Made by a program: the position numbers and the translations under genes. A stretch of DNA of 21,851 nucleotides, taken from a virus. The notes under the pieces were generated by a model. That model worked only from the letters and a program-made list of their open reading frames with translations. It did not search any database and had not been told where the DNA came from. Each line of letters opens with the position of its first letter. The first letter of the stretch is position 1. Shown in pieces: positions 13,384 through 21,405 of the stretch. The stretch lies in IMG/VR virus record IMGVR_UViG_3300013005_002249, positions 1 through 21,851 of that record; one strand, given 5' to 3'.

Positions 13384-13521
13384 GGTGCTACTGTAAAGAC
13401 ATAACAGAATAAGAAATGCCGCCTAGAGATCGGAACCCCTAGACGGCGTGGATACCAACAATAAGGCTGTTGGCATCATTACTAAGTGTAGTGTGCCAAC
13501 CTAATTTAGGAGGCACATTTA
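13384..13521 (+). promoter_or_regulatory. Structured 5' leader with mutually exclusive hairpins (riboswitch- or attenuator-like)
   Basis: A 138-nt gap in a packed operon. Stem A: GCCGCCTAG (13418-13426) with CTAGACGGC (13439-13447), one mismatch. Stem B: CCAACA (13455-13460) with TGTTGG (13468-13473). Stem C: GTTGGCA (13469-13475) with TGCCAAC (13494-13500). Stem D: TGTGCC (13492-13497) with GGCACA (13512-13517), plus inner CCTA/TAGG. Stem C shares bases with both B and D, so B+D and C are alternatives. Stem D buries the AGGAGG site (13508-13513) of the next gene, so C would be the translating form. A short frame at 13416-13442 (MPPRDRNP) overlaps stem A. I recognise no known riboswitch class. 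A promoter upstream was not clear. Confidence 0.6.
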
Positions 13522-13719
13522 GTGTTTAACTGGACAAATAAATCATTGGCAGAGATTCTGCCTTACTACGCCAACAATATCTTTATGGCTGAGATGGACT
13601 ACAAAGCCTACGGACTCGATGCCGGTGACTGGGCGATGCTCGTCAAGGAAGCGTTCGAGTCAAAAGTAATCTCACCGACTGTGATGATGGTCATGCTCGA
13701 CAGGGCTAGTGTCCAATGA
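13522..13719 (+). CDS. Small hypothetical protein, first gene of the replication operon
   Basis: A 65-residue protein starting at GTG with a near-perfect AGGAGG site 8 nt upstream, the strongest such site in the early region, and one that the leader hairpin can hide. The sequence (MFNWTNKSLAEILPYYANNIFMAEMDYKAYGLD followed by a helix ending in ASVQ) looks helical and slightly acidic, with no motif I recognise. Its stop overlaps the replisome organizer start as ATGA, so the leader would control both. It may be a small partner of the replication proteins; function unknown. Confidence 0.75.
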   Translation: MFNWTNKSLAEILPYYANNIFMAEMDYKAYGLDAGDWAMLVKEAFESKVISPTVMMVMLDRASVQ

Positions 13720-14378
13720 GCATCGAAGCTGTGTCACTCGTTCTAAACCAATCCAAAGCAACTGGCAGGGCAAAGCTAGTGCTGCTCGGAATTGCTAATC
13801 ATCTTGGAGATCAAGGTGCTTGGCCTTCGATAAGCACATTAGCCAGGTATGCCAATGCCTCAGAGCGTTCGGTCAAGCGTGACATTCAGGAACTTGTAGA
13901 GCTAGGTGAGTTGAGAGTCGAGCTACAAAACGCACCCACTAGAGGTCAATACAAGACGAATCTTTACTGGCTCACAATCAAGTCAGGGGTGACAGATTCG
14001 ACATCAGGGGTGACAGATTGGGTAAGCAGGGGTGACAGCTCAGGTAAATCAGGGGTGACACCTGTTGGCACGCAAAACATAATATTAACCATCAAAGAAC
14101 CATCAAAGAAACAGGCTGATGATGAGTTTGAAAAGTTCTGGAATCTTTACCCCAAAAAGGTAGCCAAAGGTGATGCACTTAAAGCCTGGAACAAAGCAAT
14201 CAAAAGCAAAACCGCCGATGAGTTATTGAAGCTGACTAAGGCATACGCTGAGGGAAAGTTGCCAGAGCTAAAATACATTCCCTACCCAGCCTCTTGGCTA
14301 AACAAGGGACTCTATGAGAGTGTTGAAGTCGCTGAAGCAAAACCCTTGCCTAAGCTATTCATCGGGAGAGTGAAATGA
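13716..14378 (+). CDS. Replisome organizer / replication initiator with winged-helix N-terminus
   Basis: A 220-residue protein. Residues about 1-85 are a winged helix-turn-helix (KLVLLGIANHLGDQGAWPSI, then TLARYANASERSVKRDIQEL, then GELRVEL), as in lambda O and other phage initiators. Residues about 88-118 form a low-complexity linker with SGVT repeats encoded by four DNA iterons. The C-terminal domain (about 136-205) has FEKFWNLYPKKVAKGDALKAWNKAI and PYPASWLNKGLYE, typical of phage replication proteins that load the helicase. The next gene is a DnaB-like helicase, overlapping by 4 bp (ATGA). The layout, with DNA-binding domain, iterons in the linker and helicase-contact domain, closely parallels lambda O. 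Confidence 0.85.
   Translation: MSIEAVSLVLNQSKATGRAKLVLLGIANHLGDQGAWPSISTLARYANASERSVKRDIQELVELGELRVELQNAPTRGQYKTNLYWLTIKSGVTDSTSGVTDWVSRGDSSGKSGVTPVGTQNIILTIKEPSKKQADDEFEKFWNLYPKKVAKGDALKAWNKAIKSKTADELLKLTKAYAEGKLPELKYIPYPASWLNKGLYESVEVAEAKPLPKLFIGRVK
13983..14060 (+). repeat. Four iterons (CAGGGGTGACA) of a putative replication origin
   Basis: The 11-mer occurs exactly at 13984-13994, 14005-14015, 14027-14037 and 14050-14060. Start-to-start spacings are 21, 22 and 23 bp, about two helical turns. Copies 1, 2 and 4 carry T before the motif; copy 3 has G. Copies 1, 2 and 4 read SGVT, but copy 3 lies in another reading frame and reads SRGDS, so the DNA rather than the peptide is what repeats. 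Confidence 0.85.
14066..14112 (+). other. Putative DNA unwinding element with 11-bp tandem repeat
   Basis: Directly after the iterons lies an AT-rich stretch (AAAACATAATATTAACC) followed by two perfect tandem copies of CCATCAAAGAA at 14089-14099 and 14100-14110. Eleven is not a multiple of three, so the repeat is not a peptide repeat. Iterons followed by an AT-rich repeat block is the standard layout of phage and plasmid origins. The location is within the initiator gene. Confidence 0.65.
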
Positions 14379-15625
14379 CACAGTTCGAGCAGTCGGTAAT
14401 CGGATCGGTCTTGCTGACCAACGGCAAGGCACTTGAGGAACTGACACTCGCACCCAGCGACTTTGATGACATACAGAATGAGCGAATCTACAAAACCATT
14501 CTGGAGATGAAAGCTAATCGCCAGCCAATAGATGTGATGACAGTCGGTGCAGCTCTACCAAAGCTATCGAGCTACCTTCACGATGTAGTCACAGCGACCC
14601 CAACTGCTGCCTCTGTCAAGTTCTATGCCAGCAAGGTAATTGAGGAAGCCACAAGGCGCAGACTAGCTGTTGCCGGCACGATGATTCACAGCAAGGCTCA
14701 GCATGAGGACTTAGCCACAGTCTTTGACACAGCTAAAAAAGAGATTGACAACCTCATAGATCGTAACTCGGCAGTAAAGCCCAGCTATGTTGCCGATGAG
14801 TTAATCCCTTACCTTGATGAGATAGACAAGCCAAAGCATTACCCTGAAAGCCCTTGGCCTTTACTCAACGACATCATCGCAGGATTCCGACCAGGTGCTT
14901 TATACATAATCGGTGCAAGACCTGGTGTTGGTAAGACAATCGTTGGCTTGCAGATTGCTTGGGAACTATCCAAGACTGGCCCTGTATCTTTTCACAGCCT
15001 TGAGATGGGCAAGAGTGAACTTTACAATCGCATAATCAGCATGGAAGCTGAGGTTTACATCGGCAGTATCGAAAAGGGAAACCTCAAAGAGTGGGAGTGG
15101 GACAGAATTGCTAAAGTTAGGCAAGACATTCAGACTCACCAGCTCGCCATCCATGACAAGTCAGGTCAAAACCTAATGCAGATACGAGCCTTGGCAAACA
15201 GCGTTAAGGGTAACAACGGACTTCAAGCCATCGTTGTTGACTATCTCGGTTTGATTCAAGACACCGAGAAGGGTCGAAAGCGTTACGAGATGATTACCGA
15301 CATCTCAATCGGACTCAAGAACCTAGCTAGGGATTTGAATGTGCCAGTCATCGCACTAGCCCAGCTCAACCGAGGCCCTGAGCAGCGCAAAGACTCCGAG
15401 CCTGACATGGCAGACCTTAGAGATTCAGGTGGTATCGAGCAGGATGCCGATGCTGTCCTGTTGTTACATCGAACTAGAACTGAAGAAGATAAATTGGAAT
15501 GGCAAAAAAGCCAGATGGTAATAAAGGTAGCTAAGAACCGACATGGTGGACTCGGAGAAGCCCACCTAAAGTTTGAGGGTCACCTTGCTAGAGTCACACA
15601 GCCAGCAGGAAATCAAAAAGGCTAA
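14375..15625 (+). CDS. dnaB-like: Replicative DNA helicase, DnaB-like
   Basis: A 416-residue hexameric helicase. The N-terminal domain (about 1-105) has FEQSVIGSVLL and the DFDDIQNERIYKTILEM segment of DnaB N-domains. The RecA-like C-terminal domain has Walker A GARPGVGKT (180-188), HSLEMGKSEL after it, Walker B in IVVDYLGLIQ, LAQLNRGPE, and RDSGGIEQDADAVLLLHR near the end. It unwinds DNA ahead of the fork and would be loaded by the initiator upstream, with which it overlaps by 4 bp. At 416 residues it is a little shorter than bacterial DnaB (about 470). The window contains no primase or polymerase gene, so host enzymes or genes elsewhere in the phage must supply those. Confidence 0.95.
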   Translation: MTQFEQSVIGSVLLTNGKALEELTLAPSDFDDIQNERIYKTILEMKANRQPIDVMTVGAALPKLSSYLHDVVTATPTAASVKFYASKVIEEATRRRLAVAGTMIHSKAQHEDLATVFDTAKKEIDNLIDRNSAVKPSYVADELIPYLDEIDKPKHYPESPWPLLNDIIAGFRPGALYIIGARPGVGKTIVGLQIAWELSKTGPVSFHSLEMGKSELYNRIISMEAEVYIGSIEKGNLKEWEWDRIAKVRQDIQTHQLAIHDKSGQNLMQIRALANSVKGNNGLQAIVVDYLGLIQDTEKGRKRYEMITDISIGLKNLARDLNVPVIALAQLNRGPEQRKDSEPDMADLRDSGGIEQDADAVLLLHRTRTEEDKLEWQKSQMVIKVAKNRHGGLGEAHLKFEGHLARVTQPAGNQKG

Positions 15626-20245: not shown

Positions 20246-21232
20246 ATGAAGGTAAAAGCAGAGCTAATAATCGGTGACAACCGGCAAGCCCTAAAGGAAC
20301 TACCAGATGCCTCAGTCCAAACAGTTGTGACATCGCCACCTTACTGGGGACTTAGGGATTACGGACATGACAATCAAATTGGACTTGAACAATCACCTGA
20401 TGACTTTATAGAACAGTTGTGTGTTGTCTTTGACGAGGTGTGGCGTGTGCTAAAAGATGATGGAACTATCTGGGTCAATCTAGGTGACAGCTACTCAGCA
20501 ATGCGAGATAGTAAAGCATCGCCGGACAGTCTGAGAACAGGGGAAGGAACTAGAGTTGGCTCGGCTGCCAATCGCAATCCTGAGAACTTACGCAAGGCAG
20601 GGCTAAAACACAAAGACTTAGTTGGAATACCCTGGCGCTTTGCCTTTGCCATGCAAGCTAGAGGCTGGTACTTGCGCTCTGACATCATCTGGCACAAGCC
20701 AAACCCAATGCCTGAGAGTGTAACAGATAGACCAACCAAATCACATGAGTATATATTCTTGATGACCAAATCACCACGCTATTACTATGACCACGAAGCA
20801 ATCAAAGAGGATGCTATCTGGGCTGAGGAAAAGCGAGCTGGCAAAGGTCGCTTACACTATGACGGAAAACGACAAGGCGAAAAGGGTACAGGTCAAGAAA
20901 ACTTTGTGTCAATAGTGGACAAAAGAAACAAACGCTCAGTTTGGCAGGTCAATGTAAAGGGATACAAGGAAGCTCACTTTGCTACCTATCCGACAGAGCT
21001 GATAGAGCCATGCATACTTGCAGGAAGCAAAGAAGGCGATACAGTCCTAGACCCATTCAGCGGATCAGGTACGACAGGCGAGGTAGCACTCAAGCATGGC
21101 AGGAACTATGTTGGCTTAGAACTAAACCCTGAGTATGCTGCTATTTCAGAAAAGCGCATAACAGATGCAGTTGGTATGTTTGCAGACTTAGAGATAAGGA
21201 ACGCAACATTGTTGGAAAGAAAAGAAACCTAA
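20246..21232 (+). CDS. DNA methyltransferase, beta class (N4-cytosine or N6-adenine)
   Basis: A 328-residue enzyme with GAGAGAGGGA ending 5 nt before the ATG. Motif IV (TSPPYWG, 29-35) precedes the target-recognition region, and the AdoMet motif I (DPFSGSGTT, 269-277) comes last, followed by YVGLELNPEY. That order defines the beta group. SPPY rather than DPPY is more common in N4-cytosine enzymes, but some beta-class adenine enzymes share it. No restriction enzyme is next to it, so it is an orphan. The likely role is protecting phage DNA from host restriction. The recognition site cannot be read from sequence. Its stop overlaps the next start as TAATG. Confidence 0.92.
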   Translation: MKVKAELIIGDNRQALKELPDASVQTVVTSPPYWGLRDYGHDNQIGLEQSPDDFIEQLCVVFDEVWRVLKDDGTIWVNLGDSYSAMRDSKASPDSLRTGEGTRVGSAANRNPENLRKAGLKHKDLVGIPWRFAFAMQARGWYLRSDIIWHKPNPMPESVTDRPTKSHEYIFLMTKSPRYYYDHEAIKEDAIWAEEKRAGKGRLHYDGKRQGEKGTGQENFVSIVDKRNKRSVWQVNVKGYKEAHFATYPTELIEPCILAGSKEGDTVLDPFSGSGTTGEVALKHGRNYVGLELNPEYAAISEKRITDAVGMFADLEIRNATLLERKET

Positions 21233-21405
21233 TGCCTACTTACGATTACAAGTGCAAGACCTGTGAACTCAAGATGTCAGTCATCAGAAAAATAGATGAG
21301 CCAGAGAGAACACCACTCTGCACCAACTGTGCCAAAGACTTAGTGAGAGTGTACGACCCACCAGCAGTAACCTTCATGGGTATCGGTTGGGGGAAAGACG
21401 CTTGA
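21232..21405 (+). CDS. FmdB-type zinc ribbon protein
   Basis: A 57-residue frame from the ATG of a TAATG overlap with the methyltransferase stop. The start MPTYDYKCKTCE is the signature of the FmdB/CxxC zinc-ribbon family, and a second pair follows (LCTNCAKDLVRVYDPP; Cys30, Cys33). The end (VTFMGIGWGKD) also resembles the family. Role in phages is unknown; zinc ribbons of this type are thought to bind nucleic acid or partner proteins. It ends at TGA 21403-21405 overlapping the next TTG start. Confidence 0.85.
   Translation: MPTYDYKCKTCELKMSVIRKIDEPERTPLCTNCAKDLVRVYDPPAVTFMGIGWGKDA

Follow-up and report, generated by a model that had tools for sequence, protein, structure and literature searches.

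The leader of a phage replication operon was found to carry hairpins that are assigned to both of its strands, and we consider it likely from the comparison of related sequences that a pair of sense and antisense RNAs controls expression of the operon. The predicted antisense RNA would probably switch the replication genes off, akin to the control of copy number in plasmids. Its strand-specific structures, its terminator, a conserved -10-like hexamer, and its variable loop are supported by the comparison, from which we infer the RNA itself as well as its transcription, duplex formation, repression, and the specificity of the loop.

Organization of the locus

The window, i.e., the whole stretch of DNA that was analyzed, is a virus record of 21,851 nt, in which the leader (13384-13521) is flanked by an HNH endonuclease gene and a gene for a protein of 65 amino acids (65-aa gene). 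The features of the locus are as follows.

13386-13394, plus strand: putative sense extended -10 element (TGC TACTGT); the mRNA start would be at about 13400
13408-13417, minus strand: T-tract of the putative antisense terminator (ATTTCTTATT), from the terminator scan
13418-13447, minus strand: stem A, putative intrinsic terminator hairpin of the antisense RNA; 12-13 pairs, 7 of them with double-sided changes
13451-13477, minus strand: stem B, putative 5' recognition hairpin of the antisense RNA (GATGCCAACA-N7-TGTTGGTATC); in plus-strand letters, the arms are GATACCAACA (13451-13460) and TGTTGGCATC (13468-13477)
13461-13467: 7-nt loop of B, ATAAGGC on the plus strand and GCCTTAT on the minus strand
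13469-13500, plus strand: stem C, anti-sequestor; GTTGGCA (13469-13475) plus apical pairs, with TGCCAAC (13494-13500)
13485-13490, minus strand: -10-like hexamer TACACT, putative antisense promoter; the start would be at about 13478
13491-13518, plus strand: stem D, sequestor of the Shine-Dalgarno sequence; GTGTGCC (13491-13497) plus CCT, with AGG plus GGCACAT (13512-13518)
13508-13513, plus strand: Shine-Dalgarno sequence AGGAGG, ahead of GTG 13522
13522-13719, plus strand: 65-aa gene, the first gene after the leader; start codon GTG at 13522, no family match
13716-14378, plus strand: replication initiator (HTH_36), directly downstream of the 65-aa gene
14375-15625, plus strand: DnaB-like replicative helicase, in the same operon as the initiator

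Stems A, B, C, and D had been proposed in an earlier, sequence-only reading of this DNA and are present at the places given there, with C excluding B plus D through common bases. Stem D covers AGGAGG at 13508-13513, and C and D are, as that reading held, alternative structures around the ribosome-binding site of the replication operon (HTH initiator and DnaB). That reading is correct as to the structures, and the switch that it drew from them is plausible. The plus-strand leader folds moderately better than shuffled sequences (z = -2.4; 3 of 200 shuffles were equally good).

The nearest relatives of the DnaB of the window are DnaB proteins of Microbacterium and Arthrobacter phages, with an identity of at most 39.5%, and the host is therefore probably an actinobacterium; the origin is possibly freshwater. 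Elsewhere in the window, positions 20246-21232 encode a DNA methyltransferase (N6_N4_Mtase), and after it come a small FmdB-like gene and, at 21387, a second HNH-like gene.

Relatives of the leader

Homology searching with the initiator provided 80 viral contig loci, taken from 143 confirmed ones, and three pattern scans added further leader loci; one chance hit, L178, was dropped from the leader set. In total, at least 166 leader loci from at least 130 distinct contigs gave at least 103 distinct leaders with the B-C-D layout, and the full analysis sample consists of 92 distinct leaders with 85 nt of upstream sequence. Since most leaders were selected by patterns requiring the arms of B and parts of C and D, the invariance of letters there is partly due to selection. 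Among the loci found by initiator homology only, the layout is present in all 55 that have the start of the 65-aa gene and in none of the 25 that do not, three of which (L010, L032, and L049) are cut off near the leader's place. The arms of B are constant in the 55 loci, which were found without use of these arms, and the spacer between them is 7 nt long in 96 of 104 cases and 6 nt in the other 8 (one chance hit included).

A search with model R1 gave one strong hit each, at the leader, in 31 of 57 sources; the 26 sources with no hit are the 25 leaderless initiator loci and L216, a pattern hit. Over 60 other loci picked for a match to CCAACA...TGTTGGCATC, the best hit of this model was L136 (27.2 bits, E = 0.00012), which is taken as a chance match helped by the choice of loci. 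No similar DNA was found in phage records or in 72,556 plasmids by DNA similarity, and one strict pattern found no match to the leader in bacterial genomes. Integrase, ParA, and serine resolvase were not found in 29 records of 9.5-33 kb, the completeness of which is not given.

In each of the 109 leader loci whose downstream sequence reaches 2.5 kb, an initiator or DnaB lies downstream. Nine of these loci have no match to the 65-aa protein, and in L117 the 65-aa gene is absent and the leader stands directly before an initiator carrying a different N-terminal part. From these arrangements, the 65-aa gene is judged not to be the whole target of the control by the leader.

Strand assignment of the hairpins

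The antisense alignment contains 71 of 82 distinct sequences; the 11 omitted are L088, in which stem A is missing, and ten similar to retained sequences. In stems A and B together, 315 alignment cells are G·U on the minus strand and A·C on the plus strand, and 5 are the reverse. Stem B accounts for 152 cells with G·U on the minus strand versus 2 on the plus strand, and stem A for 163 versus 3, although the pairs of A were taken from the minus-strand fold of L001 (the leader of the window), which favors the minus strand. The asymmetry is spread over 13 column pairs and thus does not go back to a single inherited change. When both strands of the 92 leaders were folded freely, A was better on the minus strand in 90 and B in all 92, whereas C was better on the plus strand in 90. 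By energy, D shows no preference for the plus strand (better on plus in 25 leaders and on minus in 67). In the outer helices of 48 distinct C/D segments, G·U occurs on the plus strand only (8:0 in C and 42:0 in D, where 41 of the 42 cells are one outermost pair); the corresponding apical counts (45:0 and 8:0) are biased because the segments were folded on the plus strand. On the basis of the G·U/A·C asymmetry and the free folding of each strand, A and B are assigned to a minus-strand RNA and C to the mRNA; D is probably an mRNA structure. Asymmetry of this kind can tell to which strand a leader hairpin belongs.

The compensatory changes that the earlier reading regarded as a check on the stems exist in seven pairs of A, and D has one, AT for GC (the ATGCC/GGCAT variant). 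That reading had taken A for a sensing domain and proposed a small molecule, a protein, or ribosome passage as the signal. A cis-acting translational riboswitch or protein-sensing leader, with A as the sensor and B, C, and D as the expression platform, would agree with the alternative structures C and D around the Shine-Dalgarno sequence, but it is very unlikely. Stem A is dispensable, as it is missing in L088; where present, it has a variable loop, pairing conserved on the minus strand, and T's behind it on that strand, so that no conserved aptamer stands upstream of the expression platform. Moreover, a conserved ligand pocket is not visible in the alignment, and the loop of B is the most variable part. 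The Rfam search of the window gave no match, in agreement with the earlier reading, which named no matching riboswitch class, and a T-box-like reading was rejected on the same grounds. With relaxed scoring (E up to 5), Rfam returned three hits at the locus, all at chance level and below their gathering scores (best E = 0.13); the c4 antisense RNA family was not among them. Because A and B are minus-strand structures, an antisense RNA is most likely the signal instead. A leader peptide in stem A (RTG-CCN-CCT...stop), seen by eye in many leaders, was rejected as it is lost in the GGCCCCCCTGAG variants.

Predicted antisense RNA and promoters

The minus strand is read as encoding a predicted RNA of about 70 nt, which would start near 13478, downstream of the -10-like element, fold into recognition hairpin B with its variable 7-nt loop, and end at terminator hairpin A. 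The minus strand from 13480 to 13410 folds with -34.6 kcal/mol (z = -7.0), and none of 200 shuffles was as good. A terminator scan of this strand picked the GC hairpin A with the tail ATTTCTTATT, and the same was found in L034. In the 71 aligned sequences, the 9 nt after stem A contain a mean of 6.4 T on the minus strand versus 1.7 on the plus strand. The terminator, a feature of plasmid-type antisense RNAs, is thus present here, with the exceptions of L088, which is without A, and L105, in which A and the T-tract are degenerate. By position and strand-specific structure, the predicted RNA lies on the strand opposite to a replication-gene leader in all 92 distinct leaders.

A TANNNT hexamer is located 5' of B on the minus strand in all 92 distinct leaders, in the variants TACACT, TATACT, TATAAT, TATGAT, TAGACT, TAAGAT, TAGAAT, TATGCT, and TACAAT. 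Its distance to the GGC of stem D (Shine-Dalgarno side) is kept at 21-23 although the two components of this distance vary. No -35 consensus of the putative antisense promoter was recognizable.

On the plus strand, TG(C/A)TANNGT is located upstream of stem A in all 92 distinct leaders. Of 8 inspected loci without the antisense module, 5 have GTGCTAAAGT immediately ahead of the initiator and 3 have it ahead of a tmRNA-like piece. These two observations suggest that the sense transcript starts near 13400; the promoter scan gave no consensus promoter for the sense element. The pattern GTGCTACTGT, which occurs once in the window, at 13385, is also found at L016:8167 and L026:4286 before other sequence and is perhaps a phage-specific extended -10 promoter. 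The sequence-only reading required transcription to begin upstream of B, with which the promoter-like element upstream of A in 92 of 92 leaders agrees; on the other hand, 81 of the 92 leaders have TAGTGT on the plus strand within C, from which a start downstream of B may arise.

Variation of the putative recognition loop

The loop of B has 32 alleles among the 130 contigs listed and is 7 nt long, or 6 nt in some; several alleles recur in divergent backgrounds. In 11 close pairs, i.e., pairs whose 65-aa genes differ at less than 5% of fourfold sites, the divergence of the loop core is 0.364 compared with 0.038 at fourfold sites, about tenfold, in a test that used only 7-nt loops and distinct loop-gene combinations and slightly favors difference. 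The loops differ in all 19 pairs with a fourfold divergence of 5-10%. In an ungapped comparison of L091 and L095, 4 of the 8 differences in 4173 bp fall within the 7 loop positions. Of the 4 mismatches between L082 and L087 over 1401 bp, 3 lie in the loop; L259 and L270 differ by one mismatch in 5198 bp by BLAST, which is in the loop, or by 10 in 5208 by ungapped extension. Many other close pairs have the loop in common. Among the 125 differences counted in 14 independent near-identical pairs, 5 are in the loop versus 0.17 expected, with the loop changed in only 2 of the 14 pairs (P = 0.012 when counted as events).

The U-turn motif YUNR is present in 13 of the 32 antisense loop alleles, where shuffles predict 5.7 (P = 0.0005); in the sense loop it is present in 4 of the 32, and in either loop in 15. 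Alleles coexist within datasets, in one case as 7 alleles on 7 contigs, and no overdispersion of alleles within datasets was found (3 of 78 pairs share an allele versus 4.5 expected, P = 0.34). Inversion of the loop was rejected, with no reverse-complement pairs among the 32 alleles. A kissing partner elsewhere was likewise rejected: the non-loop differences between L091 and L095 in the 4173 bp compared are at four sites in 1189-1225, none of which is an obvious partner. The arms do not fit the attC consensus, and with no integrase in the 29 records, an integron attC or tyrosine-recombinase core site was rejected as well.

One reading of the loop divergence is diversifying selection; it may also come from a mutation hot spot. 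A DNA-level element, in which CCAACA-N7-TGTTGG would serve as the operator of a protein or as a palindrome of the replication origin, with a center free to vary, would agree with the arms of B that are constant in the independently found loci and with the nearly constant spacer length. This is highly improbable, since a DNA site has no strand preference, yet the asymmetry is 315:5; the roughly tenfold excess of divergence over fourfold sites is not expected of a neutral center; and the T-tract and TANNNT are left unexplained. The least probable reading is that the minus-strand RNA, predicted to be compact, stable, and terminated and with a hypervariable loop that could track changing targets, acts mainly in trans on host or other phage RNA, with its position a coincidence; against this, it is opposite the replication-operon leader in all 109 judgeable loci, and the other strand preserves C as a structure of the mRNA.

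Proposed switch and loop types

For the sense/antisense pair, which is the preferred reading, the target of the antisense RNA would be the leader of the replication mRNA, the start of which is probably near 13400. In the nascent mRNA, B would form first and C would then displace it, leaving the Shine-Dalgarno sequence free for a time; in most leaders, D would be more stable and the state reached at the end. Antisense pairing would begin at the loop and remove TGTTGGCATC, the 5' arm of C, from C; with C lost, D would close over the Shine-Dalgarno sequence, and less initiator and helicase would be made.

In fold ensembles along transcription for the 92 leaders, P(B) exceeds 0.5 in 68 when B is just complete, and P(C) exceeds 0.5 in 77 before the 3' arm of D exists. 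The earlier expectation that C and D are comparably stable holds for the isolated hairpins (means of -14.5 and -12.4 kcal/mol, respectively), but not for the full leader at equilibrium, for which P(D) exceeds 0.5 in 81 of 92 leaders and P(C) in 11. The leader of the window is one of the latter, with P(C) = 0.89. Blocking the antisense site in the model abolished C and raised the number of leaders with P(D) above 0.5 to 91 of 92, while the mean predicted accessibility of the Shine-Dalgarno sequence went only from 0.35 to 0.34 (it was lower in 75 of 92 leaders); with so small a change, the equilibrium energies do not prove a switch. In these models, most leaders would pass through C as a short-lived ON state and finish in D, and antisense pairing would remove C. 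Since D wins in 81 of 92 full leaders without the antisense RNA, the modeled switch works only kinetically.

By analogy with plasmid incompatibility RNAs, the loop would set the specificity of the antisense RNA. If two phages in one cell had identical loops, each would repress the other, which might not happen between phages with unlike loops. We tentatively propose that phages in which no genes for lysogeny or plasmid maintenance were detected may carry plasmid-like incompatibility types, in which a loop of 5-7 nt would be under diversifying selection and a co-infecting relative with a different loop would escape repression of its replication operon. If this is true, the compatibility groups of wild phages could be read from metagenomes.

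Other modules in the same intergenic region

Positions 10663-10744 of L092 contain a tmRNA-like RNA of about 80 nt, which has no room for a tag reading frame. Its alignment to the Rfam tmRNA model spans model positions 1-374 but skips about 300 of them, and its score of 43.5 bits (E = 1.5e-16) does not reach the gathering score of 47. Similar pieces occupy the same place in L015, L021, L041, L053, L058, L085, L095, and L099, and in L025, L026, and L028 the piece replaces the antisense module, with GTGCTAAAGT just upstream. Three variants were folded and the others compared by eye. ARAGORN on seven of these loci and Rfam at the gathering score on six returned nothing. From its sequence, the piece looks like the tRNA-like domain of a mini tmRNA carried by phages. 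In L046 and L047, a different stretch of about 226 nt lies in the tmRNA-like slot, between the HNH stop codon and the small gene, and the intergenic region therefore looks like an exchange site for small modules.

Comparison with known systems

The closest kind of system appears to be the replication-control antisense RNAs of plasmids with loop-dependent compatibility. These RNAs, i.e., RNAI of ColE1 and the I-complex, CopA of IncFII, RNAII of pMV158, and those of the pT181 and pIP501 attenuators, are likewise short, terminated, and cis-encoded; like the predicted phage RNA, they are complementary to the leader of a replication gene and have a hairpin loop for recognition. PMC9458437 and PMC10724649 report that changes in the loop of plasmid RNAs can alter compatibility, and the former also states that a loop difference alone is no predictor of it. 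According to PMC4485353, YUNR is ubiquitous in loop-loop systems, yet only 15 of the 32 alleles here carry it in either loop; RNAII of pMV158 is independent of a kissing step. The phage locus differs from these plasmids in belonging to a tailed phage with an HTH initiator and DnaB, the 29 records having no integrase, resolvase, or ParA.

Among phage systems, P4 CI RNA is a small RNA that controls immunity. Neither P4 CI RNA nor lambda OOP RNA is known to have a hypervariable loop, and the targets of both differ from the replication-operon leader described here. PMC12197685 describes OOP as a small phage RNA in antisense orientation to cII, whose promoter is important for replication. The nearest phage cases appear to be the c4 RNA of P1 and P7 and the RNA-based origins of extrachromosomal mycobacterial prophages. 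The c4 RNA, as described in PMC12197685, is also a phage antisense RNA near a ribosome-binding site and has a role in heteroimmunity; it represses an antirepressor gene, whereas the RNA predicted here opposes replication genes. The prophages of cluster A mycobacteriophages (RedRock, Et2Brutus, and others) are likewise from actinobacteriophages, with a non-coding RNA in replication and observed incompatibility; according to PMC7157519, that RNA is encoded next to parABS, and phages without repA need it for prophage replication. In contrast, the antisense RNA predicted here opposes the leader of an initiator and a helicase, and no ParA was found.

Among the papers listed by a literature search, with subscription papers mostly outside its reach, none reports in its title or abstract opening an antisense RNA at such a phage operon. 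What appears to be new is the predicted antisense control of the plasmid type in presumably actinobacterial phages with no detected integrase or ParA. Such control would extend the plasmid style of antisense regulation of replication to a widespread group of uncultivated phages, with the 32 alleles on 130 contigs as a natural record of the diversification of a recognition loop, and would offer a hypothesis, readable from sequence, of which phages can replicate together in one cell.
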